A stretch of DNA of 64,000 nucleotides. It comes from Verminephrobacter eiseniae EF01-2 (lineage in GTDB: Bacteria > Pseudomonadota > Gammaproteobacteria > Burkholderiales > Burkholderiaceae_C). This document shows positions 3,601-61,755 of the stretch, piece by piece. A program made the position numbers and the translations under genes. Under the pieces are notes generated by a model. That model was given only the letters and a program-made list of their open reading frames with translations, did no database searches and was not told the origin of the DNA. The number at the start of each line of letters is the position of its first letter. Position 1 is the stretch's first letter. The stretch is taken from contig NC_008786.1 of assembly GCF_000015565.1 (NCBI RefSeq), forward strand, positions 3,956,501-4,020,500, written 5' to 3'.

Positions 3601-3945
3601 ATGGCAAAACCCTCGCCGGCTTGTATGGCCGAGGTGATGATGATGGCGCTTGGTGGCGTCAACCGCGACGCCAGCCCAGTGTCGCGTCACCGATCAGATG
3701 TCGTAGACTGCGCGCAGCCATCGGAGCGCAGCGCAAGGCGCATCGCTTGCCCATACCGAGCTGTATTGGCAAGCGATGCAACGCCGCGATGCGCTTCGAT
3801 GGCCAGCGCAGACCGACAGATGATCGGTGACGCGACACTAGCGGGCCTGCGCAGCTTCGACAAGGCGCTCGAGCCAGAACACTGGGCGCGCTACATCGCC
3901 CAATTCAGCAACCAGAGCACAGCAGTCGAGCAGGAGATCGCGTGA
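3601..3945 (+). pseudogene. Chimeric ORF: short leader, palindromic element, C-terminal gene remnant
   Basis: An open frame runs from ATG 3601 through the whole palindromic element at 3677-3841 and ends in an otherwise unexplained tail (LRSFDKALEPEHW through VEQEIA). The tail's stop TGA (3943-3945) overlaps the ATG of the next gene as GTGATGG, the usual sign of a translationally coupled partner. I therefore read the tail as the 3' end of a gene whose body was lost when the element inserted or recombined. I do not recognise the tail. Whether the chimera is translated is unknown. Confidence 0.45.
3677..3841. mobile_element. Palindromic MITE-like element, copy 1
   Basis: Terminal inverted repeats GTGTCGCGTCACCGATCA at the left and its complement at the right, flanked by CCAG and CTAG. 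The two arms are near-complementary across the whole length, meeting at a small loop around GCTGTAT. Contains no transposase. Confidence 0.9.
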
Positions 3946-4403
3946 TGGCCGCAGTGATGGAAAAGACAGTTCTGATCCACGGCCGCAGCCCCGACGAGGT
4001 ACTCGACTTCTGCTTGGACGGCGCCAACTTCCCGCTGATCTTCCCAGAGCCGATCCGCCCGATCGGCAAGGTCGACCCAACTCAGTTGAAGATCACTGTC
4101 GGCCGCGAGTTCGAATTCTTGCACTGGATGCTGTATTGCATCCCGTGCAAGTGGCGGGTACGCATAGCGCAGGTGCACCCCGGCACTGCCTTCGTCGATC
4201 AGATGCTGCGCGGCCCAATGAAGCGTTTGCGCCATGAGCACATCGTGAGACCAGATCCTTGCGGCACGCTGTACACCGACCTCGTCAGCTACGAGGCCTA
4301 CGGCGGCCGACTGGTTGAGAAGCTGTTCGTGAATCGATACATGAACCGGCTGTTCGAGGCACGCCACCGCAACATGCGCCGCTTGTTGGAGAACATCCCA
4401 TGA
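3945..4403 (+). CDS. SRPBCC-like (START-fold) protein
   Basis: About 152 residues. GTG 3942 is possible, but ATG 3945 overlaps the preceding stop and begins MAAVMEKTVLIHGRSPDEV. The sequence looks like a polyketide-cyclase/START-type ligand-binding domain, with an initial beta strand, a helix with FCLDGANFPLIFP, and a long C-terminal amphipathic helix ending RHRNMRRLLENIP. I have no catalytic motif to point to. Its stop overlaps the start of the following GNAT-like gene, now broken, so the pair was co-transcribed. Function is unknown. The family assignment rests on overall pattern only. Confidence 0.55.
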   Translation: MAAVMEKTVLIHGRSPDEVLDFCLDGANFPLIFPEPIRPIGKVDPTQLKITVGREFEFLHWMLYCIPCKWRVRIAQVHPGTAFVDQMLRGPMKRLRHEHIVRPDPCGTLYTDLVSYEAYGGRLVEKLFVNRYMNRLFEARHRNMRRLLENIP

Positions 4404-4890
4404 TCGACGTTCTTCCCGGCACCGACCGCCGCCCGACCGACCTTTACATCGACCTGCCTTTCCGGCTCTATCGTCACGATCCGCTCTGGGTGCCGCCACT
4501 GCGCGCCGACATCCGCAAGCTGATGTCGCCGAAAAAGAACCCGCTGTTTGCCGAGGCGGCCATCGAGCACTTTGTTGCATTCAACGAAGCTGGCGTGGTG
4601 GTGGGTCGTATCAGCGCGACGATCCACCACGACTACAACAGCCGCTTTGGCGAGCAGCACGTGTTCTTCGGCTATTTCCGATGACAAACCGCCAACTCTG
4701 CTGCAGACCTACAACCTGCCTTACTACCGCACTCTTCTGGAGCGAGCAGGACTCTCGTTAGCTTTTACCTTCAGCACCTTTGGCATAACCAGCCGAGCGA
4801 ACGGACGCACCGAGCGTTTGCGAAAGCTCGGTGAGCGGTTGCGCGAGCGCCACCGCATCACTGTGCGTAGCGCCACCCGACAGGACCTTA
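4400..4890 (+). pseudogene. Degraded GNAT-like acetyltransferase gene
   Basis: The intact-looking start (IDVLPGTDRRPTDLYIDLPF) and the stretch to HHDYNSRFGEQHVFFGYF match the N-terminus of a large GNAT-like family. The frame then hits TGA at 4682. The next recognisable piece, TYNLPYYRTLLERAGL, lies in another frame from about 4710. A further piece, RLRKLGERLRERHRITVRSA, continues to about 4885, with the acetyl-CoA-binding core missing between them. So there is at least one frameshift and one or more deletions. The start overlaps the stop of the SRPBCC-like gene. The family name is moderately sure; loss of function is clear. Confidence 0.65.
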
Positions 4891-4952
4891 AGCACAAAGA
4901 TGAAAAAACACGGAATCCGCCTTGCGCCGCAGGTCGCCGCCGGACGACGGCG

Positions 4953-5909
4953 CTACAAATCCAGTTCCAGGGTGGCACATGCGGCCCGTGACACGCACAG
5001 CATGATCCGGTCTTGCGCGCGCCGCTCATCTTCGTTCAGGTATTGATCGCGATGCTCGGCACTGCCTGACAGCAGGCGCGTCTCGCAAGTCCCGCAATAC
5101 CCTTCGCGGCACAGGCTTTGCACCTGCACCGGACTGCGCCGCTCGATGGCGTCGAGGATCGATTCGTCCTCGGCCACCACGAGCTCGCAACCGCTGCGGA
5201 CGAGCCGCACAGTGAACGCCGCGCTGGGCGCTGGCGCCGGTTGCGCAAACTGCTCTACATGCAGCCGCCGTTCGGCACGCAAGCGCCCCCCTGCGGCCTC
5301 GATCTCGTCGATCATCCGGCGCGGGCCGCAGACATACAGATGGTCGGCGTCATCGAGCGCGGCCAGCAGTTGCCGCAAATCGACACGCTGCCCCCGCGCG
5401 GCGTCATACAAACTGACGTTCCCGCGCGCACCGAGACCAGCGCAGAACGCGGCGTCTGCGGCGCTCCTGAACGCGTAGTGCAAGTGGCATGTCGCATCCT
5501 GCGCGCGCAGGGCTTGGAGGTGGGCCATGAACGGCGTAATTCCGATGCCGCCGGCGATGAACACATGCCGGCGCGCGCTCGGATCGAGCGCGAACAGGTT
5601 GCTCGGCGCGCTGATCCGGATCGCATCGCCCGGTTGCAGGGTATGCATCCAGGCCGAGCCTGCGCGCGACTGCGGCTCATGCCTGACCGCGATTCGCACC
5701 GTGGCGCCGCCGCCATGCGCGTCCAGCAGCGAGTAGGCATTGACGCCGCCGCCAAACCCATCCGCAATCCGCACCAGCAGGTGACTGCCGGACGTAAAGT
5801 GCGGGTAGACGCCCTGTCGGACCCGCAATGTGAACTGCTTGATCGCACGCGCCAGCGGCGCGGTATCGGACACCACGGCGTCGAACCAACCGATGTCTGT
5901 CATTGACAT
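4953..5909 (-). CDS. Oxygenase reductase component (PDR/VanB-type ferredoxin reductase)
   Basis: Electron-transfer subunit for a Rieske-type aromatic oxygenase, about 318 residues, the usual size for vanillate demethylase/phthalate dioxygenase reductases. Order of domains: FMN-binding barrel (HLLVRIADGFGGGVNAYSLL), NAD-binding domain (FIAGGIGITPFMAHLQAL and YVCGPRRMI), then a C-terminal plant-type [2Fe-2S] ferredoxin with CREGYCGTCETRLLSG and a last cysteine in IMLCVSRA. ATG 5909 (MSMTDIGWF) is chosen over the longer frame to 5972. The stop of an upstream minus-strand remnant overlaps this start, and a Rieske fragment lies at 6395-6592. The partner oxygenase therefore appears to be lost and the reductase orphaned. 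Confidence 0.85.
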   Translation of the reverse strand: MSMTDIGWFDAVVSDTAPLARAIKQFTLRVRQGVYPHFTSGSHLLVRIADGFGGGVNAYSLLDAHGGGATVRIAVRHEPQSRAGSAWMHTLQPGDAIRISAPSNLFALDPSARRHVFIAGGIGITPFMAHLQALRAQDATCHLHYAFRSAADAAFCAGLGARGNVSLYDAARGQRVDLRQLLAALDDADHLYVCGPRRMIDEIEAAGGRLRAERRLHVEQFAQPAPAPSAAFTVRLVRSGCELVVAEDESILDAIERRSPVQVQSLCREGYCGTCETRLLSGSAEHRDQYLNEDERRAQDRIMLCVSRAACATLELDL

Positions 5910-6600
5910 GCCTGCGACGACCTGTTGCGATGGATGCCGCCCATCATCCGGTGGAAATCCGCGACCGGGCACTCGCAGATCACGGCCACGGTAGCGCCGC
6001 CCGGCACTGCGTTGGACATCACACCTAGTGTCGCGTCACCGATCATCTGTCGGTCTGCGCTGGCCATCGAAGCGCATCGCGGCGTTGCATCGCTTGCCAA
6101 TACGCTCGGTATGGGCCGCGCGATGCGCCTTGCGCTGCGCTCCGATGGCTGCGCGCAGCCTACGACATCTGATCGGTGACGCGACACTAGCCATGCCCGG
6201 AAACCGTTGAACGCCTGGTTCTTCGCAATGCTGCCGAACGGATGGCCCGAGCCTGACGAGCGGCTGACACCATGCGGCAGCGTCCCGTGGCCATGGAAAG
6301 TGTGCGTGTAGCGGCGCGAATCGACGGAACTGGAAAAACCCGGATGTGCCGGCGGGCGGTGATGGTATTCCATAGGGTTGTCAACGATGATTTTTCAGTT
6401 TGCTGGTGTGTCGGTGATCGTGCGCGGTGCACGCTGCAACTGTGTTGCAACGTTCGCGCAATTGTTGGCAAATGCCAGTTCGCCGTCAAGTTGGAACCTC
6501 CACGCATGGTATCGACAGGCGATCACATTTTTTGCGCTCCCGCCGTCGTTGGCCGATTCGTGGCCCCGGCCGTTTTTCGGCAATCCGGTCATTCGATGCG
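5900..6600 (-). pseudogene. Remnants of a Rieske oxygenase alpha subunit, interrupted by element copy 2
   Basis: Between the reductase start and 6645 there is no intact gene. On the minus strand near 6491-6514 a frame reads VIACRYHAWRFQLDGEL, the second half of a Rieske [2Fe-2S] motif (C-x2-H-x-W-x-F). The first C-x-H cannot be found at the expected distance. A different frame continues as MEYHHRPPAHPGFSSS until the element at 6025-6190. Beyond the element a 38-residue tail ends with TGA 5900-5902, overlapping the reductase start. I read this as one oxygenase gene with frameshifts, deletions and an insertion. Only the Rieske piece is a firm recognition. Confidence 0.5.
6025..6190. mobile_element. 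Palindromic MITE-like element, copy 2
   Basis: Flanked by CTAG on both sides, with the same terminal inverted repeats as copy 1 but in the opposite orientation (GATCATCTGTCGGTC arm first). It lies inside the decayed Rieske gene. Confidence 0.92.
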
Positions 6601-6644
6601 GAGGTTCGCCTCCTTCACGATCGCGGCGTACTTTTTCAAATCGC

Positions 6645-6810
6645 CTAGTGTCGCGTCACCGATCAGATGTCGTAGGCTGCGCGCAGCCATCGGAGCGCAG
6701 CGCAAGGCGCATCGCGCAGCCAATACCGAGCGTATTGGCAAGCGATGCAACGCCGCGCTGCGCTTCGATGGCCAGCGCAGACCGACAGATGATCGGTGAC
6801 GCGACACTAG
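6645..6810. mobile_element. Palindromic MITE-like element, copy 3
   Basis: CTAG on both sides; orientation as copy 1 (GATCAGATGTCGTAGG arm first). It marks the upstream border of the decayed Rieske region. Only about 450 bp separates it from the inverted copy 2. The 262 bp after it (6811-7072) hold no gene I can support, only the leader of the Bug gene. Confidence 0.92.
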
Positions 6811-7072
6811 GAACTGGCGCCCGAACTCCGCCGGCCCATTGCCGCTGCCGCTGACGCTGGCGCTGATAGCCCCCGAAGGCGAGTGACACCAGCAGCCTGG
6901 CAAAGCCCGCAGTGCGGCACCCCTGGCATGGGTCGCGCCCGTTGCATGCGCCGCCGGTGGCGCGCAGCGCCATGGCCACTTGCAGGCCTGGTTTGCCTCG
7001 GGTTATTCCCTGGCTCGGTGCCATTCTTGCCAGCAATAATCGATTGACTCTGATGAAAATGGGAGACGACCA

Positions 7073-8077
7073 ATGAAAGCTGCTGCCGACTGCTCGCGCC
7101 GCCAGGCGCTGGGCACGGGCCTGGGTTTCGTTGCCACCGCTCTGGCGCCAGGGGTGGCGGCAGCGCAAGGCCCTGCCGCGTGGCCCGGCAAGGCCGTGAC
7201 GCTGGTGGTCGGCGCGCCGCCCGGCGGTCAGACCGACTTTGCGATCCGGGTGCAGATACCCGGCTTGCAGGCCGCGCTGGGCCAGCCTTGCGTGATCGAC
7301 AACCGCCCGGGCGCCGGCGGCAACATCAGCGTCGAGCATGTGCTCAAGGGCCCGAGCGACGGCTACCGCCTGCTGGTGGGCAACGGCGGCAACATGACCA
7401 TGAACCCCCACACCTACCGCAACACACCGATGGTCGACCCGCGCAGGCTGGTGCCGATCGGCCTGCTGCTGCAGTCGGCGCTGGTGCTCGCAGTGCATCC
7501 GGACGTGGGTGCGAAGAACTTCAGCGAGTTGCTCGCCTGGGTCAAGGCGCAGGACGGCATCGACTACGCCTCCTCCGGGCCTGGCAGTCTCACGCAGGCG
7601 GCGATGGAACTGCTGCGCGAGCGCATGGGCCGGCCGGCGATGACCCACATCGCCTACAAGGGCAGCGCGCCGGCGCTGCACGACTTGATCGCTGGCCGCG
7701 TGAAGCTGATGTTCGACGCGGTGTCGGTCATCGCACCCTTCGTCCGGTCAGGGCAGTTGCGGGCGCTGATGGTCACCAGCGACAGGCGCGTGCCCGCGCT
7801 GGCGCAGGTTCCGACGGCGGACGAACTCGGCCTGAAGGATTTCATCGTCACCTCGTTCATCGGCCTGTACGGCCCGCCCGGCCTGTCCCCCGAGATCGTC
7901 AGGAAGGCCAACGCAGCGCTGAACCAATCGATGGCCGATCCGGTCACGGTCAAGACGATCACCGATCGCGGCGACGAGCCGGGCGGCGGCACGCCCGAGC
8001 GCCTGATGGGCATGACCCACGGGTACTACGAGACTTGGAGGCAGGTCGTGCAGGCCAACGATATCCGGGCCGATTGA
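7073..8077 (+). CDS. Bug/TctC-family tripartite tricarboxylate transporter substrate-binding protein
   Basis: Periplasmic binding receptor, 334 residues, typical length. A twin-arginine-like leader CSRRQALGTGLGF with a hydrophobic stretch ends near GVAAAQG, so export by Tat or Sec is likely. The mature part shows the family hallmarks: VTLVVGAPPGGQTD at the start, then VIDNRPGAGGNI, the YKGSAPALHDLIAGRV motif and GLYGPPGLSPEIV. The start follows GGGAGACGACCA. No TctA/TctB membrane genes are adjacent, which is common for the expanded Bug families of Burkholderiales. The ligand, probably a carboxylate, cannot be read from sequence. The following gene is a disrupted solute-binding protein. Confidence 0.92.
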   Translation: MKAAADCSRRQALGTGLGFVATALAPGVAAAQGPAAWPGKAVTLVVGAPPGGQTDFAIRVQIPGLQAALGQPCVIDNRPGAGGNISVEHVLKGPSDGYRLLVGNGGNMTMNPHTYRNTPMVDPRRLVPIGLLLQSALVLAVHPDVGAKNFSELLAWVKAQDGIDYASSGPGSLTQAAMELLRERMGRPAMTHIAYKGSAPALHDLIAGRVKLMFDAVSVIAPFVRSGQLRALMVTSDRRVPALAQVPTADELGLKDFIVTSFIGLYGPPGLSPEIVRKANAALNQSMADPVTVKTITDRGDEPGGGTPERLMGMTHGYYETWRQVVQANDIRAD

Positions 8078-8111
8078 GCGCCTGTGCCATGGCGCCCCCG
8101 GTTCCCGGACC

Positions 8112-8174
8112 GTGGGCACCGCGCGGCCGCCCGAAGGCGCCCATACCGTAGCCGAAGGCAAAGGTTCCCCAGTG
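8112..8174 (+). repeat. 62-bp dispersed repeat, copy A
   Basis: GCCCGAAGGCGCC, ATACCG, AGCCGAAGGC and CCAGTGA follow in order and end on the GTG start of the next gene. The same arrangement, about 80% identical by eye over 62 bases, occurs on the minus strand at 46112-46172, also ending on a GTG. Confidence 0.6.
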
Positions 8175-9546
8175 AACGACAAGACCGAACCGATCACGCT
8201 CAAGGGACTGACCTGGGCGCATCCACGCGGCTACGACCCGCTCGTGGCCTGCGCGAGCCGTTACGCGCAACTGAGCGGCCATGTGCGCATCGAATGGCGC
8301 CAGCGCTCCTTGCATGACTTTGGCGCCGCGCCGATCTAGTGTCGCATCACCGATCATCTGTCGGTCCGCGCTGGCCATCGAAGCGCATCGCGGCGTTGCA
8401 TCGCTTGCCAATACAGCTCGGTATGGGCTGCGCGATGCGCCTTGCGCTGCGCTCCGATGGCTGCGCGCAGCCTACGACATCTGATCGGTGACGCGACACG
8501 AGGAACTGGCGCGCAGCTTCGACCTGCTGGTGATCGACCATCCCTTCATCGGGCAGGCCGATCGGACCGGCTGCTTTCGCGATCTCCGTGAACTGATCGC
8601 CGCCCCTGTGCTGTCGCGGCTGACGGCACAGGGCGCAGGCCCGTCCGGCCAAGCCTATGTCTGGCGCGGCAAGGTCTTCGCGCTGCCCACGGATGCCGCA
8701 GCCCAGGTCGCCAGCTACCGCGAAGACCTGCTCGCCGATCTTGCGCCCGAGCCGCCCAGGCGCTGGGCCGATGTGCTGCTGCTGGCCGAGCGCGCACGCG
8801 CAAACGGGCAGACGCTGTCCTGGGCCGGCACACCGACCGACGCCGCCTGCACCTTTCTGACGCTGGCCGCCAACCTGGGGCACCCGCTGGGCCGCAACGA
8901 AGGCGAGTTCCTGCCGGCCCATGTGACCGAACAGGTCATGCGGCACCTGCACTGGATCGTGCAACATGCGCAGCCGTCCTGCCTGGTCGACAACCCGATC
9001 CGCGTGTACGAGGCGATGCTGGCCGGCGAGCGCATGGTCTATTGCCCTGCGGCCTTTGGCTACTCCAACTACGCGCGCCAAGAGCGCAGGCCCTGGCTGC
9101 GGTTCGCGCCGCTGGCCGGGCCGGGTGCCGAGCCATCGTGTGGCGCCCTGCTCGGCGGCGCCGGCATGGCGATCTCCAGCCACAGCGTGGCACCGCGCGC
9201 GGCCGCCGCCTTTCTCGCCTGGTTGCACAGTGCCAAAGTGCAGCGCGGCCTCTACGCCAGCGCCGGGGGCCAGCCCGGCAACCTGGCTGCCTGGCGCGAC
9301 CGGAGCGTCAACGCCATGGCCCGCGACTTCTTCGCCGCCACGCTGACGACACTCGAAGCCGCCTGGGTGCGCCCGCGATTCGCCGGCATCGTTGCCTTCG
9401 TGGAAGCCGCCGGCGGCGAAATCAACCGCTGTCTGCGCGGTCAGACCGACATGCGCCGGCTGCACCGAGCGCTGACCGCGCTGTACCACCAAGCCTGGGC
9501 GGAGCGCGGCCAGGCGCTGTCGCCGGCGCTGAAACACGCACCATGA
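8172..9546 (+). pseudogene. Extracellular solute-binding protein gene split by element copy 4
   Basis: GTG 8172 opens a protein (VNDKTEPITLKGLTWAHPRG) that stops at TAG 8337-8339, inside the border of element copy 4. The rest resumes at GAG 8500 (EELARSFDLLVIDHPFIGQA) and runs to 9546. Joining ATC 8334-8336 to GAG 8500-8502 restores one continuous protein of about 404 residues across the junction API/EEL. The insertion is 163 nt, so it both adds a stop and shifts the frame. The protein resembles ABC-type solute-binding proteins without an obvious signal peptide. The downstream part is otherwise undamaged, which suggests a recent insertion. Confidence 0.85.
8336..8502. mobile_element. Palindromic MITE-like element, copy 4 (gene-disrupting)
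   Basis: CTAG at the left, CGAG at the right. The left terminal repeat carries one change (GTCGCATCAC instead of GTCGCGTCAC). It is inserted in the solute-binding gene. The coding frame shows exactly which bases are extra (8337-8499). Confidence 0.92.
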
Positions 9547-9836
9547 ACCGCGCCTCGGCGCCCCTTCTGGAAATGGAAATCTGCAGCCATGCCGCGCTCG
9601 TCCGCTGGAACCGGACCGGGTAGTTCGACGCAACGGACAGCCCGATGGCCGATCCGTCGTGCGCCGCGTTCAAGGCCGCCGGTACGACACCGGGCGTCTT
9701 GGGGCGCTTTGGGGCGCTTTGGGGCGTCTTGGGGTCTTGGGAAGGCCGACCGGGCGCATGGCCCCATTCCCCTGCGGATGCGGCCCCCTGCGGATGTGGG
9801 GTGGCAAATCCGGCGGGCCGAACGGGCCGCAGACCG
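9544..9836. other. Gene-poor stretch: possible enoyl-CoA hydratase start remnant and tandem repeats
   Basis: A 26-codon frame at 9544-9624 (LLEMEICSHAALVRWNRTG then stop) resembles the first strand of enoyl-CoA hydratases, but nothing follows it. Next come 10-base tandem repeats at 9691-9740 and a doubled CCCCTGCGGATG around 9768-9800. No intact gene is seen. Confidence 0.35.
9691..9740. repeat. 10-bp tandem repeat (GGGGCGCTTT, about 5 units)
   Basis: Consecutive units CGGGCGTCTT, GGGGCGCTTT, GGGGCGCTTT, GGGGCGTCTT and GGGGTCTTGG. It lies in non-coding sequence beyond the end of the SMP-30 gene. Confidence 0.85.
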
Positions 9837-10682
9837 TCAGCGGCCCGGGCTGGCAAGGGCGGCCAGATCGATCTCGGTGATGTGCCAGCGGCCAAGATTT
9901 GCCGTGTAGAGTTTGTCGCCCTTGAAGGCGATGTTGGTGGGATGCGCCAGCGTGGTCGCTGTCGGATCCTCCATCAGCACTTCGAGACCCCGATCTTTGC
10001 GCCAGCGATAAATCCGGCTTGGCTCGTAGCATGAAATGAACAGCGAACCGTCGGGCGCGCAGGCCACGCCGTCCGGAACGTTGTGCACCCCCTCGACGAC
10101 GACCCGCCGGGCTCCGGGCGCACCGTCGGCGAGGATCGGCACATAGCTGATGCACGGTGCATTGCTTTCCACCACATACAGGCCGTTGCCATCCGGCGCC
10201 ATGGCCATGCCATTGGCAAAGGACATGGCCTCGCGGCACCACAGGCCGCCGTCGCCGGTCTTCAGGTCGTAGCGGAAGATGCCGGAGCGGTTGTCTTGGC
10301 CGACACTGTCCGACACGAAGAGCCAGCCCCTCAGCTCGTCGACGACCGGGTAATTCGGCACGCGGATGCCCGCCGAAGCAAAGCGTTCCATCTGCGCTGT
10401 CCCGGCATCCCGGCGAAAGATCGCCGAGTGCTTCCAATCGCAGGCAAAACAGTTCCCGGCACCGTCGAAGGCAATGCCGAGCAGAAACCCTTGCGTGCCA
10501 CCCATGCGCTCGACCGAAGCACCATCGGCGGCCAGCCGCAGCAAATCGCCGGTTTCGGTGCCGCACCAGATGGATCCGTCGCGGTGGACGGCCACGCCCT
10601 CCGGGTGCGCGACGCGCGGGCTGGTGAAGATGCCGTCGAAGAAAACTTTCGCGGCCGACATTTCGAGCAACGGTTTTGCCAT
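9837..10682 (-). CDS. SMP-30/gluconolactonase family protein
   Basis: Six-bladed beta-propeller lactonase-type protein, about 281 residues. Metal-site regions are visible: HPEGVAVHRDGSIWCGTE near the N-terminus (glutamate ligand), FANGMAMAPDGNGLYVVES (asparagine) and NVPDGVACAPDGSLFISCY (aspartate), ending in HPTNIAFKGDKLYTANLGRW. ATG 10682 (MAKPLLEMS) is chosen over 10727 because GAAGGGA precedes it. It is the last gene of the nine-gene minus-strand operon, 85 bp after the epimerase-like gene. It probably hydrolyses a sugar lactone or similar ester made by the upstream dehydrogenase. This is inferred from the family and position. Confidence 0.85.
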   Translation of the reverse strand: MAKPLLEMSAAKVFFDGIFTSPRVAHPEGVAVHRDGSIWCGTETGDLLRLAADGASVERMGGTQGFLLGIAFDGAGNCFACDWKHSAIFRRDAGTAQMERFASAGIRVPNYPVVDELRGWLFVSDSVGQDNRSGIFRYDLKTGDGGLWCREAMSFANGMAMAPDGNGLYVVESNAPCISYVPILADGAPGARRVVVEGVHNVPDGVACAPDGSLFISCYEPSRIYRWRKDRGLEVLMEDPTATTLAHPTNIAFKGDKLYTANLGRWHITEIDLAALASPGR

Positions 10683-10767
10683 CGCAGGTCCCTTCACCCG
10701 TGCGGCAGCCCGGCAGCCCGTCGCCATCCGTCGAGCCGAGGCCGGTTCGGCATGGCTGCGCGCTCTT

Positions 10768-12569: not shown

Positions 12570-12573
12570 GGTG

Positions 12574-13779: not shown

Positions 13780-13799
13780 TTCATGTCTCTTTCATGTCG

Positions 13800-14585: not shown

Positions 14586-14586
14586 T

Positions 14587-15693: not shown

Positions 15694-17212
<1,519 letters not shown>

Positions 17213-31929: not shown

Positions 31930-32094
31930 CTAGTGTCGCGTCACCGATCATCTGTCGGTCTGCGCTGGCCATCGAAGCGCATCGCGGCGTTGCATCGCTT
32001 GCCAATACAGCTCGGTATGGGCAAGCGATGCGCCTTGCGCTGCGCTCCGATGGCTGCGCGCAGCCTACGACATCTGATCCGTGACGCGACACTG
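31930..32094. mobile_element. Palindromic MITE-like element, copy 5
   Basis: CTAG at the left, CTGG at the right. The inner arm reads GGGCAAGCGATGC, an exact complement to GCATCGCTTGCC, so this copy is the more perfectly palindromic form. It lies 20 bp beyond the purL stop. Confidence 0.92.
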
Positions 32095-43249: not shown

Positions 43250-43402
43250 GAGTGTCGCGTCATCGGTCATCTGTCGGTCTGCGCTGGCCATCGGAGCGCA
43301 GCGCGGCCTTGCATCGCTTGCCAATACGCTCGGTATGGGCTGCGCGCTGCGCTCCGATGGCTGCGCGCAGCCTACGACATCTGACCGATGACGCGACACC
43401 AG
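43250..43402. mobile_element. Palindromic MITE-like element, copy 6 (short variant)
   Basis: About 12 bp shorter in the right arm. Its terminal repeats read GTCATCGGTCA and the exact complement TGACCGATGAC, so both ends differ from the other copies by matching substitutions. Flanked by CGAG and CCAG. Confidence 0.9.
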
Positions 43403-43541: not shown

Positions 43542-43705
43542 AGTGTCGCGTCACCGATCATCTGTCGGTCTGCGCTGGCCATCGAAGCGCATCGCGGCGT
43601 TGCATCGCTTGCCAATACGCTCGGTATGGGCTGCGCGATGCGCCTTGCGCTGCGCTCCGATGGCTGCGCGCAGCCTACGACATCTGATCCGTGACGCGAC
43701 ACTAG
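43542..43705. mobile_element. Palindromic MITE-like element, copy 7
   Basis: CTAG on both sides, 164 bp, without the extra base in the loop (ATACGCTCGG), so the minus-strand frame stays open through it. Confidence 0.92.
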
Positions 43706-50150: not shown

Positions 50151-50317
50151 CTAGTGTCGCGTCACCGATCAGATGTCGTAGGCTGCGCGCCGCCATCGGA
50201 GCGCAGCGCAAGGCGCATCGCGCAGCCCATACCGAGCTGTATTGGCAAGCGATGCAACGCCGCGATGCGCTTCGATGGCCAGCGCAGACCGACAGATGAT
50301 CGGTGACGCGACACTAG
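50151..50317. mobile_element. Palindromic MITE-like element, copy 8
   Basis: CTAG on both sides, orientation as copy 1. It lies between the acyl-CoA-dehydrogenase-like gene and tRNA-Asn, close to the right end of the accessory block. Confidence 0.92.
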
Positions 50318-50528: not shown

Positions 50529-50533
50529 TTTGC

Positions 50534-50569
50534 AAAGCCCTGCACCCCATGTTCCGTGCAGGGCTTTTT
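50534..50569 (+). terminator. Intrinsic terminator of tRNA-Asn
   Basis: AAAGCCCTGCAC and GTGCAGGGCTTT form a 12-bp stem around CCCATGTTCC, followed by a T run. Confidence 0.93.
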
Positions 50570-50647
50570 CATTGCGCAGCCGCTGCCATCGCGGCTGCGG
50601 CGCATGCCGGACAATCGGCGCATCGACGTCTTTGGCCCCTCTGTTCC

Positions 50648-51427: not shown

Positions 51428-51443
51428 CGACGGCTCTTACGGC

Positions 51444-52199: not shown

Positions 52200-52292
52200 A
52201 CCCGCGCGCGCATTTCACAAGCTAAGATGCGGCGGCGTCCGACCCTTTGCCGCTGATGGCCGCCGATGGCGGCATCCGACCCCTTGCCGCTC

Positions 52293-53126: not shown

Positions 53127-53139
53127 GCCCGGCGGCACT

Positions 53140-54258: not shown

Positions 54259-54379
54259 CAAAGTGGTTCCCCAACGGCAATCGCTGCCGGGTCTGTTCAT
54301 GAAATCCGCAAAAAAATCGCGCAAGATCAACATCTTGCGCGACCTTCCAAGAAAGTGCATGAAATTATAGATAGATCAT

Positions 54380-55918
54380 TCAACCCTGCGCCGCCACCCG
54401 ATCGGCTTTATTTTGTAACTTGTTCAGCGCACTGAAATAGGCTTTCGCCGAAGCGACCACGATGTCCGGGTCGGCTCCCACCCCATTGACGATACGGCCG
54501 CTGTTTTGCAGGCGCACGGTCACCTCCCCCTGGCTCTCGGTCGAGCCGCTGATGGCGTTGACCGAATACAGCACCATCTCGGCGCCACTGTGGACATGCG
54601 CCTCGATGGCTTTGAGCGAGGCATCGACCGGCCCATTGCCCTGGGCCTCGGCGTGCACATTTTGTCCGTTGACCGTGAACACGATGCGCGCGTGCGGCTG
54701 CTTGCCGGTCTCGCTTTGCTGGAACAGCGAGACAAAGCCGTACTGCTCGTTGTCGCCGCTGACGCTCTCGTCGCTGACCAGCGCCAGAATGTCTTCGTCG
54801 AAAATCTCGCTCTTGCGGTCGGCCAGTTCCTTGAAGCGCGCGAACGCCAGGTTGATTTCGGCCTCGCTGTCCAGGCTCACACCGAGCTCCTGCAGGCGCT
54901 GCTTGAAGGCGCTGCGGCCGCTGAGCTTGCCCAGCACCATCTTGTTCGCGCTCCAGCCCACATCCTGCGCGCGCATGATTTCGTAGGTGTCGCGGGCCTT
55001 GAGCACGCCGTCCTGGTGAATTCCGCTGGCATGCGCGAACGCATTCGCACCCACGATCGCCTTGTTCAGTTGCACGGCAAAACCCGTGGTCTGACTGACC
55101 ATGCGGCTGGCCGCCAGGATATGCTGCGTGGCGATGCCAAGGTCCAGGCCAAAGTAGTCGCGCCGCGTCTTGACGGCCATCACCACCTCTTCCAGCGAGC
55201 AATTGCCGGCGCGCTCGCCCAGGCCGTTGATCGTGCACTCGACCTGGCGCGCGCCGCCCATCTTCACGCCGGCCAGCGAGTTTGCCACCGCCATGCCCAG
55301 GTCGTTGTGGCAATGCACGGACCAGATCGCCTTGTCACTGTTCGGCACCCGTTCACGCAGCATCTTGATGAAGTTGCCATACAACTCGGGAATGGCGTAG
55401 CCGACGGTGTCGGGCACATTGATCGTCGTGGCGCCCTCGGCGATCGCGGCCTCGATCACGCGGCACAGGAAATCCGGGTCGCTGCGGTAGCCGTCCTCGG
55501 GGCTGAACTCGATGTCGGCCACGAGATTGCGGGCGAAACGGACCGATTGCAGCGACTGCTCGAGCACCTGCCCGGGCGTCATGCGCAGCTTCTTTTCCAT
55601 GTGCAGCGCCGAGGTGGCAATGAAGATATGGATGCGCGCATTGGCCGCCCCTTCGAGCGCCTGCGCAGCACGGGCGATATCACGGTCATTGGCGCGGGCC
55701 AGCGAGCAGATGGTGGCCTCCCGGATGGTGCTGGCGATCGCCCGAACCGCGTCGAAATCGCCGTTGGAACTGGCGGCAAAGCCGGCCTCGATCACATCCA
55801 CCTTCAGCCGCTCGAGTTGGCGCGCAATGCGCAGTTTTTCGTCCTTGGTCATCGAGGCCCCGGGGGACTGCTCGCCGTCGCGCAAGGTGGTGTCGAAAAT
55901 GATCAATTTGTCAGCCAT
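54380..55918 (-). CDS. leuA: 2-isopropylmalate synthase
   Basis: First committed step of leucine synthesis (acetyl-CoA plus 2-oxoisovalerate). 512 residues. ATG 55918 ([20 protein letters not shown]) follows CAGGAGAGACGTC. The catalytic domain has [30 protein letters not shown] and [15 protein letters not shown]; metal-binding and substrate residues are intact. The C-terminal regulatory LeuA dimer domain for leucine feedback is present. Upstream lie a leucine-rich leader peptide and a hairpin with a T run, so attenuation by leucyl-tRNA supply is likely. Confidence 0.97.
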
Positions 55919-55968
55919 GACGTCTCTCCTGGTACTACCTGGGTTGGCCCGCAACATAAAAACTCTGG

Positions 55969-56013
55969 CGCCGAAAAAACAAAAGGCCCGTTGCGGGTGC
56001 ATACGGGCCTTTT
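55969..56013 (-). terminator. leuA attenuator hairpin
   Basis: On the minus strand AAAAGGCCCGT and ACGGGCCTTTT form an 11-bp stem, directly followed by GTTTTTTC. It lies 50 bp before leuA and about 20 bp after the stop of the leader peptide, as in amino-acid attenuators. Confidence 0.88.
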
Positions 56014-56033
56014 GGAAAAGTGTGCGCGTGCGC

Positions 56034-56087
56034 CTACCGTCTCCGCCCGTAAGGGGATAGCAATAGGGCCAGTGCCAACTCGTTCAT
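56034..56087 (-). CDS. leuL: leu operon leader peptide
   Basis: A 17-codon frame, [17 protein letters not shown], with five leucines in eight residues (codons TTG, CTG, CTA, TTG, CTA). The stop lies about 20 nt before the terminator hairpin. Slow translation at the leucine codons when Leu-tRNA is scarce would let an alternative structure form and leuA be read. A possible promoter has TTGCGG at 56122-56117 and TACATT at 56100-56095. That would start RNA close to the ATG, which fits the absence of a visible ribosome site. Confidence 0.82.
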
Positions 56088-56145
56088 GACGCGCAATGTA
56101 GCACAGACCGCGCTTGCCGCAACCATCGAACGGCGTCCCCTGTCC

Positions 56146-56655
56146 TCAGGCATTGCCGGCCATGATGCCCCAGCGCGCCAACGCCGCGTCGTCGCTGACC
56201 CGGGCGTCCACCCAGCGCACGCCCTGGGGAGTGTGTTCCTTTTTCCAGAAAGGCGCCTGGGTCTTGAGGTAGTCGATCAGAAACTCGCAGGCCTGAAAGC
56301 CCTGCCCCCGGTGGGCACTGGCCACGGCCACCAGCACGATCTGCTCGAGCGGTTGCAGCCGCCCGACGCGGTGGATGACGCGCGCGCCAACGATGTCGAA
56401 GCGCCGCACCGCCTCATCGACCATCGCCTCGATGGATTTTTCAGTCATGCCGGGATAATGCTCCAACTCGATCGACAGCACGGCATCGCCCGCGTCCTCG
56501 ACCGGCAGGCCGCCCCGGGAAGGCGGATTCCTGTCGCGCACCACGCCGACAAAGCTGCAGACGGCGCCCACGCCCCTGTTGTCGCGGCGCAAGGCAGCGA
56601 TTTCGCTGGACAGGTCAAAGTCCTGGGTCTGGATGACGACGCGGGGCAGGCCCAT
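56146..56655 (-). CDS. moaE: Molybdopterin synthase catalytic subunit MoaE
   Basis: Inserts sulfur into precursor Z to make molybdopterin, working with MoaD. 169 residues. Pattern: GAVCSFVGVVRDRN, LELEHYPGMTE-like (IELEHYPGMTEKSIE), VASAHRGQGFQACEFLIDYL and the catalytic-lysine region KTQAPFWKKEH. The gene would serve the molybdoenzyme at 40648-42930 among others. MoaD and MoeA, often adjacent, would lie beyond leuA or elsewhere; they are not in this window. Confidence 0.95.
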   Translation of the reverse strand: MGLPRVVIQTQDFDLSSEIAALRRDNRGVGAVCSFVGVVRDRNPPSRGGLPVEDAGDAVLSIELEHYPGMTEKSIEAMVDEAVRRFDIVGARVIHRVGRLQPLEQIVLVAVASAHRGQGFQACEFLIDYLKTQAPFWKKEHTPQGVRWVDARVSDDAALARWGIMAGNA

Positions 56656-56712
56656 GGCAAGACCGCTGTCTGTGTCCCGTGCTGCGCGGCAACGATGCCT
56701 GGCCCCGGGCGC

Positions 56713-57471
56713 TCAAGCCGGCGGCCGGGGTGCGCAGGCGCTGCAAGCACCTGACTGCCCCCATCCGGAGATGGGCAGCGCCCGCGCGCTGGCCACCTGG
56801 CGCAGACGCGCATGCTCGGCCATGACCCGTGCGGCGTAGCCGCCATCGTCGACCATGTTGGCGCTGCCCACGTAATGGCGCAGGCCGCCCTCGATGGAAC
56901 CGGCGCGCGCAATGCATTCCTGCAAGATCTCGACCCCCACGCGCAGGTTGCTCACCGGGTCGAAGGCCGCCAACTGGCCGCCGAAGTTCTGGTACTTGTC
57001 GGTGTGCACCCGGGTCATCACTTGCATCAGGCCCTGGGCGCCGACGGCGCTTTGGGCAAACGGATTGAAGCCCGATTCGATGCCCATGACGGCCAGGATC
57101 AGCGTCGGGTCGATGCCCGATTGCGTGCCGGCGTCATAGGCCCGGGCCACCAACACGCTCAGCGGCTCGGGGGCCACGCGGTACTTCTTGCTGAGCCAGA
57201 AGGTCACGGCGGCCTGATCCCTGGGCAGGTCTTCGGGCTTGCCCGCCTTGGCGCGCGCGCCGGCTTTTGCTGCGTCGAGCGGGCCAGAGGGCATTTGGCG
57301 GGCTTGCAGCCAGTTCATCAACTGCGCCTCGCCCGCTTCGCGCAGGTCCGGGCGGGCCACCAAGGCCATGACGACAAAGGCCACGGCCAGGCCGACAAAG
57401 TCCAGGCTGTGCCGGGCGGCGGCCATACAAGCGGCGATCATGCCGGAGATCATCTTTCCTGAAGCGGTCAT
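56713..57471 (-). CDS. Lytic transglycosylase (SLT domain)
   Basis: Peptidoglycan-cleaving enzyme, 252 residues. An N-terminal membrane segment (SLDFVGLAVAFVVMALVARP) acts as signal or anchor. The catalytic domain follows LILAVMGIESGFNPFAQSAV, where the ES glutamate is the acid/base residue, and GAQGLMQVM. It ends with a short cysteine-containing tail. Homologues with this layout are the small family 1 transglycosylases of Burkholderiales. Confidence 0.9.
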   Translation of the reverse strand: MTASGKMISGMIAACMAAARHSLDFVGLAVAFVVMALVARPDLREAGEAQLMNWLQARQMPSGPLDAAKAGARAKAGKPEDLPRDQAAVTFWLSKKYRVAPEPLSVLVARAYDAGTQSGIDPTLILAVMGIESGFNPFAQSAVGAQGLMQVMTRVHTDKYQNFGGQLAAFDPVSNLRVGVEILQECIARAGSIEGGLRHYVGSANMVDDGGYAARVMAEHARLRQVASARALPISGWGQSGACSACAPRPPA

Positions 57472-57639
57472 GGATCCTCCTTATTTTGTCAAGCGCAACG
57501 GAAAAGCGCCGTCGCCGTTCGGGGCGGCGCCTTCCCGGCAGCTCGCTTGGAGGCCGGCAGTTCGCCATCGAAATCGGGCGGCGCGCCGTTGGAGCGCCGG
57601 GTTGCCCTGGTGGGACTCAAGCCGACCTGGGGTTTTTAC

Positions 57640-57806
57640 CTAGTGTCGCGTCACCGATCATCTGTCGGTCTGCGCTGACCATCGAAGCGCATCGCGGCGT
57701 TGCATCGCTTGCCAATACAGCTCGGTATGGGCTGCGCGATGCGCCTTGCGCTGCGCTCCGATGGCTGCGCGCAGCCTACGACATCTGATCGGTGACGCGA
57801 CACTAG
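57640..57806. mobile_element. Palindromic MITE-like element, copy 9
   Basis: CTAG on both sides; orientation as copy 2. It lies upstream of the transglycosylase gene in non-coding DNA (57472-57639 also has no gene). Confidence 0.92.
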
Positions 57807-58060
57807 TTCAGGCCCGTTGGAGAGTTCGGCGGATTCTAAAAGCCCTCTTAATGCTTAGTCAACAATAACGAAGTTGACGTTGAGATATTTAAGTCATGAA
57901 AAATACCGAAAAACCACGGTCTAGGGTGGTTTTGCAAGACCCCGGCATGCCCGTAGTGGGCGGCGCCGGCGTGACCGGCCCCGGTCCAATCCAATCGGTC
58001 AATCGGCCGTCTGGCGCCCATTGGAAATCCGGTTTGAGTTGTCACGGCGACTTTGCTAAG
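57807..58060. other. Non-coding region with AT-rich stretch
   Basis: An AT-rich patch at 57835-57910 contrasts with the rest of the window. AAAACCAC...GTGGTTTT makes an 8-bp hairpin at 57909-57933. No convincing gene; the frame from ATG 57896 is low-complexity downstream. Confidence 0.45.
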
Positions 58061-58300
58061 GTGCGCTTGGCCTGCAAGATTGCAGGCCGCGCCGGACGAA
58101 GCCGAATCTCCCGCCGAAGGCAGGCAATGCCAAGGGTTGTAGATGACGCTTGCATGGCACCCCCCTGGAGGCAATCCCTTGCCTCCCTGCCCTGCGCAGC
58201 CGCATTTGCGCAGGGCCATCGATGGCAAAGACCGTTGTGTCAGCCGTCAAGCCCGGCGGACAGGCCGCAAGGCACTGCCCGCCGGGCTTTCTTCGGTTTT
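58061..58300 (+). ncRNA. Candidate structured small RNA with terminator
   Basis: Three perfect hairpins, GGCCTGCA-AGAT-TGCAGGCC (58069-58088), GGAGGCAA-TCCC-TTGCCTCC (58167-58186) and CCCTGCGCA...TGCGCAGGG (58190-58215), followed by a fourth stem (58249-58289) that ends in T-rich sequence. A weak promoter, TTGAGT at 58034-58039 with TAAGGT 17 bases later, lies just upstream. No protein frame explains the conservation of the stems. I do not recognise a known RNA family. Confidence 0.5.
58249..58300 (+). terminator. Intrinsic terminator upstream of the DUF349 gene
   Basis: AAGCCCGGCGG and CCGCCGGGCTT pair over 11 bp, followed by TCTTCGGTTTTTC. It ends whatever is transcribed from 58.06 kb. Confidence 0.75.
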
Positions 58301-58496
58301 TCGCAGGCTCGATGCCCTGCTCCGACATTCGGGCCGATGGTTGGGCGCGGTCATCGATCGCGGTCATACGCGGTTATAGATAATGGGCGCTCCCCGGTGT
58401 CGCCCTGACCAGGGATCGCAGCGTCAGCCGGTCTGGCACCATGGCTTGCCCTCAGGCAATGAGTTCGGGGGCGCCCTCGTCCATCCACTGGATACC

Positions 58497-61238
58497 ATGT
58501 TTTCATTTTTTCCCCGCAGCAAAATGTCCGAAGCACCTGAAGTGAATCCGGCCCCGGCCAAAACCCACGAGCCGCAGCCACTCGATGCGCTGACCGGTGG
58601 CGCCTTTTCCGCCGCCACCTCCGGCGAGCGCGCCGCCCGCATTCGCGACTGGCTGCTCACCGAGCCCGCGCCGGAACAATTGCAGGAAGTCTTCAAGGAA
58701 CTGAGCCGGCGTGACAAGGGCGCCGCCCGTGCAGTGCGCGAGCGCCTGGACGAAATCCGCCGCGCCAAGGGGCAGCAAGCCATCGCTGCCGAATGGGCGG
58801 AAAAGGCCCAGGCCCTGCTGGCGACCCCCAAGCTCAACATTGCCGATGCGATGGCCTGGCAGCGCGATGCCGCCAAGGCCGGCGCCCCGCTGTCGCGCGA
58901 GCCGCTGTCGCTGCTCAAGATACAGGTGGCGCAGCGGGTGCAGGTCATCGAAGACCTGCAGCACCGCGTGCAGGTGCAGCGCGAAGCGGCGGTGCTGCTG
59001 GCCCAGCGCATCGAGGTGCTGTCCACCAAGCCCTGGCGCGATGCGCTGGCCGCGCTCGACGCGCTGCGCGCCGATGTCGCCCACTGGCAGGAGCAGGCCC
59101 TGCAACTGAGCAGCGATGCCAGTTGGGCCAGCGTGGACCTGCGCTTTCCGCCGCTGCTGGAGGCATCGCGCAGCCAACTGCTGGTGGTGTGGGAGGCGTT
59201 CCAGCCGGCGCTGGCCCAGGCCGCTGCGGCCGCCGAAGACGCCGCTGCGCCGCTGCCGCCAGTGCCCGTGTGGGCCGACGAGTTGCGCGCCGCGCGCGGC
59301 TTGCTCGCCGAGGCCGCTGCCAAACCCGCCCGCGCCGCCCGGCCCAAGCCCGACCCCGAAGTGCTGGCGCAAGCGACCGAACTGGTGCGCGCAGCCCTGG
59401 CGACGCTGGAAAAGGCAACCGCCGAAGGCCATGGCAAGGCCAGCGCCGGCGCCGCAGCGGCGCTGCGCGCCGTGCTCAAGGCGCAGGGCAAGCATATCGA
59501 TGACAAACTGGAGCAGCAGGTGCATGCCGCGCTGGTGGCAGCCGGCGAACTCGAAGGCTGGCAGCGCTGGAGCACCGACCAAGTGCGCGAAGACCTGGTG
59601 GCCAAGGCCGAGGCGCTGCTCACCCGCCCCGAAGGCCAGACCCTGGGCGGACGCAAGATGCAGGAAACCCTGCGCCATCTGCGCGACCAATGGAAACAGG
59701 CCGACCAAGGCGGCGCGCCGAACCACGCGCTGTGGAAGCGGTTCGACGAGGCTTGCAACGCCGCGCACAAGGTGGTCGAGCTCTGGCTGGACAATATCCG
59801 CAGCGAAGCCGCCGAGCACAAGGCGCAGCGCCTGGCCCTGATCGAAGAGCTCAAGGACTGGGCGCAGCAGCCGGCCGCCTCGGGGGATTGGAAAGCCGTC
59901 CACCGCGCGCTGCAGCAGTTTGGCGAGCGCTGGCGCGAAGGCGGCCATGTGGGCGAGAAGATCTTCGCCGAGTTGCAGCCGCTGTGGAAGCAGGCCCTGG
60001 CCCTGGCGGCCGCGCCGTTGGAAGCGGCGCAAAAAGAGAGCCTGGCCCGGCGCCAGGCGATGATCGAAGAGGCCAACGCGCTGGGCGCCGCAGCCACGCT
60101 GCGCATCGACGCCGTCAAGGCCCTGCAGCAGCGCTGGCAGGCCGAAGCGCAGACCGTGCCGCTGGAGCGCAAGCATGAGCAAAAGCTCTGGGAGGCTTTC
60201 CGCAAACCGTTGGACGAAGCCTTCCAGCGCAAGTCGACCGAGCGCGAGCGCGCCGTCTCCGAACTGAGCGCGCGCGACCGCATGGTCCTCGACGCGGCCA
60301 ATGCCCTGCAAGCGGCCAATGCCAGCGCTGACGCGCAGCAGATTCGCGCTGCGATGCAGGCGCTCGAAGCCGCCTTGCGCGGCCAGGCCCAGGCGGCGCA
60401 AGTGCTGGCCTCGGCGCCCAAGGATGCACAAGATCAGGTACAGGTACAGGTACAGGTGCAGGTGCAGGAAGAATCTGCACAGGATGCGACGAAAAGCGTA
60501 GCCCATCAGACACCGGAAGAAGGGGCTGACCCGGCCAGTGCGGCGGCGGCGCCTGCCGCCGCGCCCAAGCCTGCGCCACGCCCGGTGGTGGCCGTGCGTG
60601 GCGATGACCGCCCCGGCATGAAGAAGGACATGCTGCCCGCCCCGGGCCGGGGTGGGCGTCCCGGCGAGCGCCGCGCCGACCGGCCGGGAGAGCGCGACCG
60701 CAATCCGCGTGCCGATGGCCGCAGGGGCGAGCGCAGCGAGCGTGCTGGCCACGGCGCCGACCGCCCGCTGCCCGAAGAGCGCGGTCCGCGCCTGGGCGAC
60801 ACCGCTTTCCGCGCCCAGCGCGACGCGATGGAGCAGGCCCAACTGGCGCTGAAGAAACTGGCCGCGTTGGCCCATGGCGAGGCGCTGACCCAGTTGCTCA
60901 CGGCCTGGCAACAGCGCGACGCAACCCAGGTGCCCGGCACGCAGGAGCTTGGCGTGCCGGCCGCGATGCGCAGCGCCTGGACGCAAGCGCTGTCAGCGCC
61001 ACCCCGGGGCGATGCGTCCGAAGCGCTGCTGCGCCTGGAGATAGCGGCACAAACGCCCACCCCCGCCGAGCACATCGACGCGCGCCGGATGTTGCAACTG
61101 CAATTGCTCACGCGCCGCAACGACCCGGGCCCCGCCCAGACCTGGGGCCAGGACACGGCCCTGGTGCTGGCCAGTGCCAACGACGCCGCCAACACCCACC
61201 GGCTGCAACGGGCGTTGAAGGCATTGCTGCGCAAGTAG
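58497..61238 (+). CDS. DUF349 domain-containing protein
   Basis: 913 residues. ATG 58497 (MFSFFPRSKMSEAPEV) starts a mostly helical protein with several DUF349 repeats: charged helical modules with tryptophans, for example LRDQWKQADQGGAPNHALWK near residue 400 and RWQAEAQTVPLERKHEQKLW near residue 550. Residues about 645-660 are a (VQ)n stretch encoded by a hexanucleotide repeat, followed by a basic, disordered segment (GGRPGERRADRPGERDRN). A last conserved helical part ends KALLRK. Function is not established for bacterial DUF349 proteins. Confidence 0.85.
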   Translation: MFSFFPRSKMSEAPEVNPAPAKTHEPQPLDALTGGAFSAATSGERAARIRDWLLTEPAPEQLQEVFKELSRRDKGAARAVRERLDEIRRAKGQQAIAAEWAEKAQALLATPKLNIADAMAWQRDAAKAGAPLSREPLSLLKIQVAQRVQVIEDLQHRVQVQREAAVLLAQRIEVLSTKPWRDALAALDALRADVAHWQEQALQLSSDASWASVDLRFPPLLEASRSQLLVVWEAFQPALAQAAAAAEDAAAPLPPVPVWADELRAARGLLAEAAAKPARAARPKPDPEVLAQATELVRAALATLEKATAEGHGKASAGAAAALRAVLKAQGKHIDDKLEQQVHAALVAAGELEGWQRWSTDQVREDLVAKAEALLTRPEGQTLGGRKMQETLRHLRDQWKQADQGGAPNHALWKRFDEACNAAHKVVELWLDNIRSEAAEHKAQRLALIEELKDWAQQPAASGDWKAVHRALQQFGERWREGGHVGEKIFAELQPLWKQALALAAAPLEAAQKESLARRQAMIEEANALGAAATLRIDAVKALQQRWQAEAQTVPLERKHEQKLWEAFRKPLDEAFQRKSTERERAVSELSARDRMVLDAANALQAANASADAQQIRAAMQALEAALRGQAQAAQVLASAPKDAQDQVQVQVQVQVQEESAQDATKSVAHQTPEEGADPASAAAAPAAAPKPAPRPVVAVRGDDRPGMKKDMLPAPGRGGRPGERRADRPGERDRNPRADGRRGERSERAGHGADRPLPEERGPRLGDTAFRAQRDAMEQAQLALKKLAALAHGEALTQLLTAWQQRDATQVPGTQELGVPAAMRSAWTQALSAPPRGDASEALLRLEIAAQTPTPAEHIDARRMLQLQLLTRRNDPGPAQTWGQDTALVLASANDAANTHRLQRALKALLRK
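60435..60468. repeat. In-frame hexanucleotide repeat (CAGGTA/CAGGTG)
   Basis: Five CAGGTR units plus a partial one inside the DUF349 gene, coding for alternating valine and glutamine. Unit-number changes would keep the frame. Confidence 0.85.
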
Positions 61239-61589
61239 CTGCCGGCGGCCGCCCCGGCCGGACTTGCGGCAAGGCCGGGTTCATGGCAGGTTCATGGAAC
61301 AGGGCCTCGGCGCGGTCGGCGCGCTGTGCACCCCGGATCGCCTGTGGTTCGCCAGTGCTTCGCCGCCCGCGCCCTGGCCCGGCGCTTACCCGGCGTTTGC
61401 CCGGCGCCTGCGCCATGCGCAGCCGGGGCGCACCCGCAGATCGATGGGGCAGCGCCTTTTGCCGGGCGACCCCGTCCCGGGCGATGCGCACGCCATCGGA
61501 CACGGCGAGCGGCCGTGCGGCACGGGCAGCAACCGCCGCGCTACCGGCCCGGGGCGCAGTTTGGCCGCGCCCGGATCGCACGCCGGGCG
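61239..61589. other. Gene-free stretch before element copy 10
   Basis: 351 bp of GC-rich sequence without a supportable gene or clear signal. Open frames there have low-complexity, arginine/proline-rich translations and no ribosome site. Confidence 0.5.
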
Positions 61590-61755
61590 CTAGTGTCGCG
61601 TCACCGATCAGATGTCGTAGGCTGCGCGCAGCCATCGGAGCGCAGCGCAAGGCGCATCGCTTGCCCATACCGAGCTGTATTGGCAAGCGATGCAACGCCG
61701 CGATGCGCTTCGATGGCCAGCGCAGACCGACAGATGATCGGTGACGCGACACCAG
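61590..61755. mobile_element. Palindromic MITE-like element, copy 10
   Basis: CTAG at the left, CCAG at the right; orientation as copy 1. It lies 6 bp beyond the stop of the thioesterase gene. Confidence 0.92.

Follow-up and report, generated by a model that had tools for sequence, protein, structure and literature searches.

Introduction

A palindromic repeat of Verminephrobacter eiseniae, named VeiPR1, is stated in passages of PMC3975124, which cites the Pinel 2009 thesis, to make up 2.3% of the genome, and these passages (PMC3975124) call it 'unique to V. eiseniae'. According to excerpts of PMC2170065, ISY100 duplicates TA on insertion, and REP sequences are outlined in parts of PMC3733652 as hairpins of 20-40 bases that carry an unpaired tag, GTAG or CGTC, at one of their sides. 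Here we analysed a 64,000-base stretch of the V. eiseniae EF01-2 genome (the window), in which a sequence-only reading had noticed a family of palindromic elements. This family is very probably a non-autonomous IS630-family (Tc1/mariner-like) MITE that inserts at the TA of CTAG, and no transposase with the same ends was found in the genome.

Results

Copies in the window and in the genome

With at most three mismatches, TGTCGCGTCACCGATCA gave 20 matches in the window, compared with 0.23 expected from shuffles, and these form ten inverted pairs lying at all ten positions where palindromic copies had been read. With strand denoting orientation only, the copies in orientation A (+) occupy 6029..6186 (158 bases, flanks CTAG / CTAG), 8340..8498 (159 bases, CTAG / CGAG), 31934..32091 (158 bases, CTAG / CTGG), 43544..43701 (158 bases, CTAG / CTAG) and 57644..57802 (159 bases, CTAG / CTAG), and those in orientation B (-) occupy 3680..3837 (158 bases, CCAG / CTAG), 6649..6806 (158 bases, CTAG / CTAG), 50155..50313 (159 bases, CTAG / CTAG) and 61594..61751 (158 bases, CTAG / CCAG). 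The tenth, at 43253..43398 (+, CGAG / CCAG), is a 146-base variant with TGTCGCGTCATCGGTCA at both ends, a matched change in both arms. Measured from TGTC to GACA, nine of the ten copies are thus 158-159 bases long, and the size of ~165 bp given earlier is reached with CTAG counted on both sides. As the sequence-only reading had held, every copy folds as RNA into a single long hairpin, at -97 to -121 kcal/mol; its term 'near-perfect' goes too far, for the arms are imperfect, and a consensus fold computed from 136 genome copies has 64 pairs. CTAG stands on both sides of five of the ten copies, and the rest are mostly one letter off on one or both sides.

The genome comprises 5,597,943 bases in two contigs, C2 (5,566,749 bases, with the window at C2:3,956,501-4,020,500) and C1 (31,194 bases). 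Searching all of it with the terminal repeat, as the sequence-only reading had proposed, returned 312 forward and 315 reverse ends at up to two mismatches (1 and 1 for a reversed control pattern), and the genome holds about 313 copies. A sample of 2.464 Mb including the window, 44% of the genome, contains 151 paired elements, among which 136 are 157-159 bases long and the other 15 range from 47 to 179 bases. These 151 include 4,397,070, a mis-paired duplicate of 4,397,091, and 1,734,577/1,734,738, a tandem with one base missing whose odd flanks are no evidence for TA; the flank counts contain both. In a profile search, the family covered 0.94% of the sampled 2.464 Mb and 2.45% of the window. 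Both orientations are equally frequent among the 136 standard copies (68 each), which represent 101 distinct sequences with a mean pairwise difference of 3.3%. All four combinations were present in 71 pairs of variable sites out of 120, and in 54 of these pairs every combination occurred two or more times. Such incompatible site pairs indicate either an exchange of interior variants between copies or repeated change, and gene conversion would be the simplest reading of an exchange.

The 46 genus mates have at most two MITE ends per strand, not above the control pattern. A MITE copy used as query in a plasmid search and an exact-pattern scan of the genome contigs each returned no match. At gathering score, Rfam found two tRNAs in the window, neither of them on a MITE copy; of further Rfam searches, one gave a match far below its cut-off (29.4 versus 124 bits) and one gave none. 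The best 80 of 157 seeds placed CRISPR-like and coding-like repeats first among the commonest 16-mers. One repeat pieced together from these 16-mers, GTTCACTGCCGGATAGGCAGCTCAGAAA, which we take to belong to a CRISPR, occurs ~290 times in the 2.464-Mb sample. V. eiseniae is reported to carry Xylella-like genes on a plasmid, and the first 4 kb of C1 (31,194 bases), the plasmid, matched five Xylella taiwanensis plasmid records (82.5% over 31%), in which a zeta toxin family protein and an antitoxin are annotated.

Insertion sites and reading frames

The elements are short, carry no gene, have terminal inverted repeats and are present in many copies, and target duplication together with an empty site in relatives was found at one locus, an insertion in SURF1; the description of the family as MITE-like, with no transposase inside, therefore stands. 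All 46 genus mates match the gene, and none of the matches listed spans the element. In total, 29 loci were fetched and 18 aligned; two alignments were off-site, four were spurious and 12 were usable. Each usable alignment has a single 4-mer at the site (CTGG in eight, CTCG in two, TTGG and CAGG in one each) under an empty-site model that removes 162 bases (160 bases plus TA) from V. eiseniae. Counting against a clean empty site, gaps lie slightly to the left of it in several relatives.

A reading frame runs across the modelled empty site of 29 of the 148 copies examined, and across none of the other 119. Through the MITE itself, 19 of the 29 frames are open and ten are not: five of these ten sit immediately before an apparent gene start, four encode no recognised protein and one is a frameshift, caused by a 157-base copy in a thiolase-like gene. 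Ten junctions picked from the open frames were compared with Pfam, placing eight clearly within a match, one at its edge and one outside any match. In 741 long coding frames, CTAG occurs 27 times in the phase CTA-G and 8 times as nCT-AGn, and in the commonest phase a gain of 162 bases (160 bases plus TA) can be read as an open 54-codon insert. Open inserts are thus likely from the CTAG phase alone, which explains most of what might be taken for an in-frame bias.

Flanks and target-site duplication

The flanks had been described as CNAG, mostly CTAG on both sides. CTAG / CTAG is found in 75 of the 151 sampled copies, and the others depart mostly by one letter. The flank profile of the 136 oriented copies is symmetric. 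In eight of them an outer flank base departs from C..G but the inner bases remain G..C: three read CTAG/CTAC, one reads GTAG/CTAA and four have TTAG on the left. This would fit NTAN targets in which TA is duplicated. A duplication of all four CTAG bases by another DDE family, with the element running only from TGTC to GACA, has to be weighed against this. It would explain directly the two copies with GTAC on both sides, and among the 151 it would also accommodate CCAG/CCAG three times and CTGG/CTGG and CTCG/CTCG once each; left and right 4-mers agree in 79 of 136 copies, slightly above the 67.7 of shuffles, but the middle two letters alone show a like excess (88 against 78.6). The eight outer-base departures with the inner G..C kept speak against it, as does the IS630 chemistry of the same-ended IS described below, which predicts TA. 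We consider the four-base duplication improbable, and read the GTAC/GTAC copies as elements that may end in C..G, given that TACTGTC is the start of some IS in the clade. The inner base differs in two further copies, at 372,267 and 2,671,155. With these two and the two GTAC/GTAC copies as exceptions, the family shows the TA duplication and the CTAG preference of an IS630 member. IS630 insertion at the TA of CTAG was reportedly described by Tenzen and Ohtsubo in 1991, and the IS630-type IS of this genome likewise sit in CTAG.

Because 71 of 544 T and A letters of the duplication have changed (13%), compared with 364 of 21,461 interior letters (1.7%), the flanks appear to predate the interior, unless CTAG is lost quickly. 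Most changed flanks read CTGG or CCAG, and whatever depletes CTAG in this genome would also explain these changes.

CTAG occurs 435 times in the sample, where 1,823 would be expected from the counts of CTA, TAG and TA. The MITE flanks that read CTAG number 199 and correspond to 193 different sites, because tandem neighbours share a CTAG; the other CTAGs number 242. The sequence is so rare that 193 of the 435 sampled CTAGs adjoin a copy, which goes beyond an ordinary MITE. Six tandem pairs with one common CTAG (CTA in one of the six) were found among 145 neighbour gaps, compared with 0.06 expected. At C2:2,851,704-2,854,089, the left CTAG of a single MITE contains one IS630-type element and its right CTAG another, different one. 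The host genome contains at least four different IS630-type elements that have the CTAG target in common and differ in their ends.

Elements with the same ends in other genera

DNA similarity was searched over 349 genomes of Comamonadaceae, with two candidates scored per genome. Full-length relatives of the MITE, at 70-89% identity, were found in six genomes of five other genera (G405, G421, G423, G061, G393 and G330), and any MITE match in 61 of the 349 (own genome included), with shorter core matches outside the six. Counts of the end pattern are 40+37 in G423, 31+26 in G393 and 0 to 4 per strand in the other four (controls 0 to 5); G061 has no MITE end within one mismatch.

G423 carries two 1,182-base elements (L316:298-1479 and L317:259-1440), bounded on one side by CTAG followed by TGTCGCGTCA and on the other by TGACGCGACA followed by CTAG. 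Each adjoins a MITE, the CTAG being common to IS and MITE, and a third identical transposase lies at 2,639,608. The transposase is encoded in two overlapping frames, of which ORF1 matches HTH_32/HTH_29 and ORF2 matches DDE_3 (E 3.4e-32); against the NCBIfam IS630 model, ORF2 scored 164.5 bits (cut-off 100) and ORF1 alone 63.4, under the cut-off. At least 9 of 11 IS inspected have an A6-A8 run in the overlap, as would be expected for programmed frameshifting. The MITE ends are therefore common with those of an element that carries an IS630 transposase.

Searching nine genomes with ORF2 returned close homologues in G423 (100%) and G393 (72%). When 399 family genomes were searched with at most six candidates scored per genome, nine (own genome included) passed E 1e-60, and G104 was one of these, at 73%. 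Named genomes, when scanned, yielded at least 80 loci at 57-77%, the best in Polaromonas sp. CG9_12. Of the 80 loci fetched, 28 were checked; TA, then G or C, then TGTNNNGTCA is present at both ends in 22 of the 28, as read from the rows of the IS-end listing (a TGTCG-only tally gives 4 of 28), and two more are one letter off.

MITE and IS are alike over 10 bases at the ends in V. eiseniae, and over 25 bases at 92% (E 7e-5) between the MITE of G393 and the IS end of G423; beyond these 10-25 bases, a comparison of the MITE interior with the IS revealed nothing convincing in common. Because the two share only ends as far as seen, a simple deletion inside an IS does not appear to have given rise to the MITE.

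Search for a partner in the same genome

The sequence-only reading had supposed that a resident element moves the copies in trans and had proposed looking for a transposase gene bounded by the same ends, but no transposase with MITE ends was found in this genome. The exact end TGTCGCGTCA with a base other than T at position 20 gave 13 matches, compared with 9 in the reversed control, a search blind to IS with diverged ends or with T at position 20. Six of the 13 are in or beside MITE variants, and for the other seven no opposite end lies within 1.5 kb. Pfam DDE_5, looked for in the partner search, was absent.

Several candidates were rejected individually. The best ORF2 homologue of V. eiseniae (51%; others 21-33%) has the ends GTACCNCTGCACAGAGG, unlike those of the MITE. 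An IS630 gene near a lone MITE end at C2:2,960,476 belongs to an IS bounded by different ends, GTATTTCGTTTC, and the MITE fragment there is a truncated copy ~50 bases outside that IS. For the lone end at 2,600,168, near a gene that we take to be cobA-like, the 6 kb downstream contain no opposite end. The copy at 574,227-576,011 is a MITE split by another IS, which sits in its loop. Separately, at L195 (C2:1,521,633), a MITE-like end, TGTCGCGTCACCG, runs directly into a stretch also present in an IS630 transposase gene of this genome, perhaps by a chance match or a fusion.

From the CTAG flanks, a resident IS5-family element had been proposed as the mover. IS5-type genes are indeed present, presumably including a ~1.62-kb IS in a MITE loop and an 842-base element with CTAG on both sides in one of two copies, but their ends, GTCGGNCCTGC and GGCGYGTTAACA respectively, differ from those of the MITE. 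Throughout the 44% of the genome sampled, the ends of multi-copy IS differ likewise, and no IS5 element with MITE ends was found; such ends bound IS630-family transposases in other genera, and a four-base duplication would leave the CTAG/CTAC and GTAG/CTAA flank pairs unexplained. We consider an IS5 mover very unlikely. The ~1.62-kb IS, with its transposase frame, occupies C2:574,309-575,930, and the 842-base IS5-like element lies in CTAG at C2:2,958,248-2,959,089, beside an IS630-type element with which it has that CTAG in common.

A single Y1_Tnp (RAYT-like) match was found in the genome, at L041:1438-2157, between neighbours that we take to be rppH-like and gltB-like, with a MITE ~150 bases downstream. 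This proximity and the hundreds of hairpin copies would suit a REP/RAYT-type system, in which a Y1 (HUH) transposase moves single-stranded hairpins beside a tetranucleotide tag. With 151 copies in 2.46 Mb, however, such proximity to a given gene arises by chance in a few per cent of cases. The flanks, symmetric whichever way a copy is oriented, fit duplication of TA on double-stranded DNA, IS630 elements with identical ends exist, and REP-like features were not seen in the copies, mostly 157-159 bases long with symmetric CTAG. This mode of movement appears most improbable, and mobilisation by an IS630-family transposase is the reading we retain.

Hairpin body

In 20 sequences from nine genomes, 28 of 49 pairs have changes on both sides, 96.6% of cells are in pairing state (81.1% when shuffled), and arm covariation reaches 0.422 (0.149 when shuffled), with 0 of 500 shuffles as high and slid controls at most 0.063, the structure being drawn from the same alignment and the shuffles ignoring relatedness. 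An interior unlike the IS, combined with arms that appear to covary over their whole length in nine genomes, also goes beyond an ordinary MITE. Among the 136 V. eiseniae copies, compensatory change is hardly seen (2 cells, compared with 186 cells changed on one side), and one-sided changes are as expected of a young burst.

The 55 bases at positions 54-108 form a core that is also present in larger hairpins of genus mates and in other genera. In many of 18 genus-mate loci (L238-L255, ~300 bases each), a larger hairpin reads AGAACCTGTTCA ... CTTGCCGGG, the 55-base core, CCCGGCAAG ..., having the MITE core including its asymmetry in common and different ends. At L236:335-492 and L237:344-501, in two genus mates (genomes G034 and G041), a 158-base relative lies in apparently the same flanking sequence and without CTAG, possibly an old fixed insertion.

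The hairpin could itself be functional, as RNA or cruciform DNA, and be kept by selection, with transposition only spreading it. The two-sided changes and the recurrence of the core within other hairpin elements would favour this, but the covariation values carry the dependence on alignment and relatedness given above, changes within V. eiseniae are nearly all one-sided, template switching between the arms would give covariation in the absence of selection, and the copies have no Rfam match at gathering score. We regard it as rather unlikely that function accounts for the family, and fold selection and template switching are each possible as causes of the covariation. A further reading, to which we give less than even odds, is a hairpin module with a conserved core, slightly asymmetric, that related genera carry within different outer shells; one shell would have gained IS630 ends and become mobile, the full palindrome being kept by selection or by arm-to-arm correction, and in V. 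eiseniae the mobile form would have filled a large share of the scarce CTAG and then lost its transposase.

Discussion

The mobile unit would be G-TGTCGCGTCA ... TGACGCGACA-C, excised by a transposase that recognises TGTCGCGTCA ends and inserted at the TA of CTAG, so that TA is duplicated and CTAG comes to stand on both sides. Its body would be a long imperfect hairpin unlike the IS, with a core found also in other hairpin elements of related genomes. In V. eiseniae the family would have grown to about 313 copies, which swap interior variants, most simply by gene conversion, and are now probably stranded, or moved by an outside transposase. The family looks orphaned in this genome, where the search for a transposase with such ends found none. 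Several points count against placing it with IS630: the evidence comes from sequence, the GTAC/GTAC and inner-base copies are exceptions, the flanks look older than the interior, gaps lie near the SURF1 site, the coverage differs from that published for VeiPR1, and the genome with the most copies yielded no cognate IS.

A palindromic repeat of an earthworm symbiont can now be assigned to a family and linked with a target site, with relatives and with a probable partner transposase. It offers a clean case for asking whether the fold is the reason that palindromic MITEs retain their hairpin, and for following the fate of a transposon whose target is almost absent from the genome. Because strong rearrangement of the V. 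eiseniae genome is reported in passages of PMC3975124, some 300 similar copies would be a plausible substrate for it.

The family may be VeiPR1, to which it is likened by description only, as far as the passages go: organism, palindromy and very high copy number agree, whereas 2.3% is published compared with 0.94% of our sample, and 'unique to V. eiseniae' contrasts with full-length relatives in other genera. If the two are the same, the open literature found holds only a name and a percentage; no link of VeiPR1 to IS630 was found in the open literature searched. The Correia elements of Neisseria show TA duplication and palindromy, as does the present family. They are also short MITEs with >100 copies, according to portions of PMC10969869. 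They belong to another host, and the likeness is one of description, not of ends. We know of no transposase for the Rickettsia palindromic elements (RPE). Sections of PMC10969869 describe these as ~150-base palindromes, some of them open in frame inside genes, whereas our family has no spanning frame at 119 of 148 copies and has ends that match the IS630 clade. REP/RAYT systems are similar in their abundant hairpins and in the one Y1 transposase match of this genome, but, judged by the REP description excerpted above, the MITE is about four times longer and has terminal inverted repeats, TA duplication and an IS630 partner. With IS630/ISY100 the family has TA duplication and, with IS630, the CTAG preference in common, and the IS with the same ends has an HTH and DDE transposase, although the MITE has no gene and nothing convincing in common with the IS beyond 10-25 bases at the ends. 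The family is a new, well-anchored member of a known element type, whose body covaries unusually and whose target is in unusually short supply.
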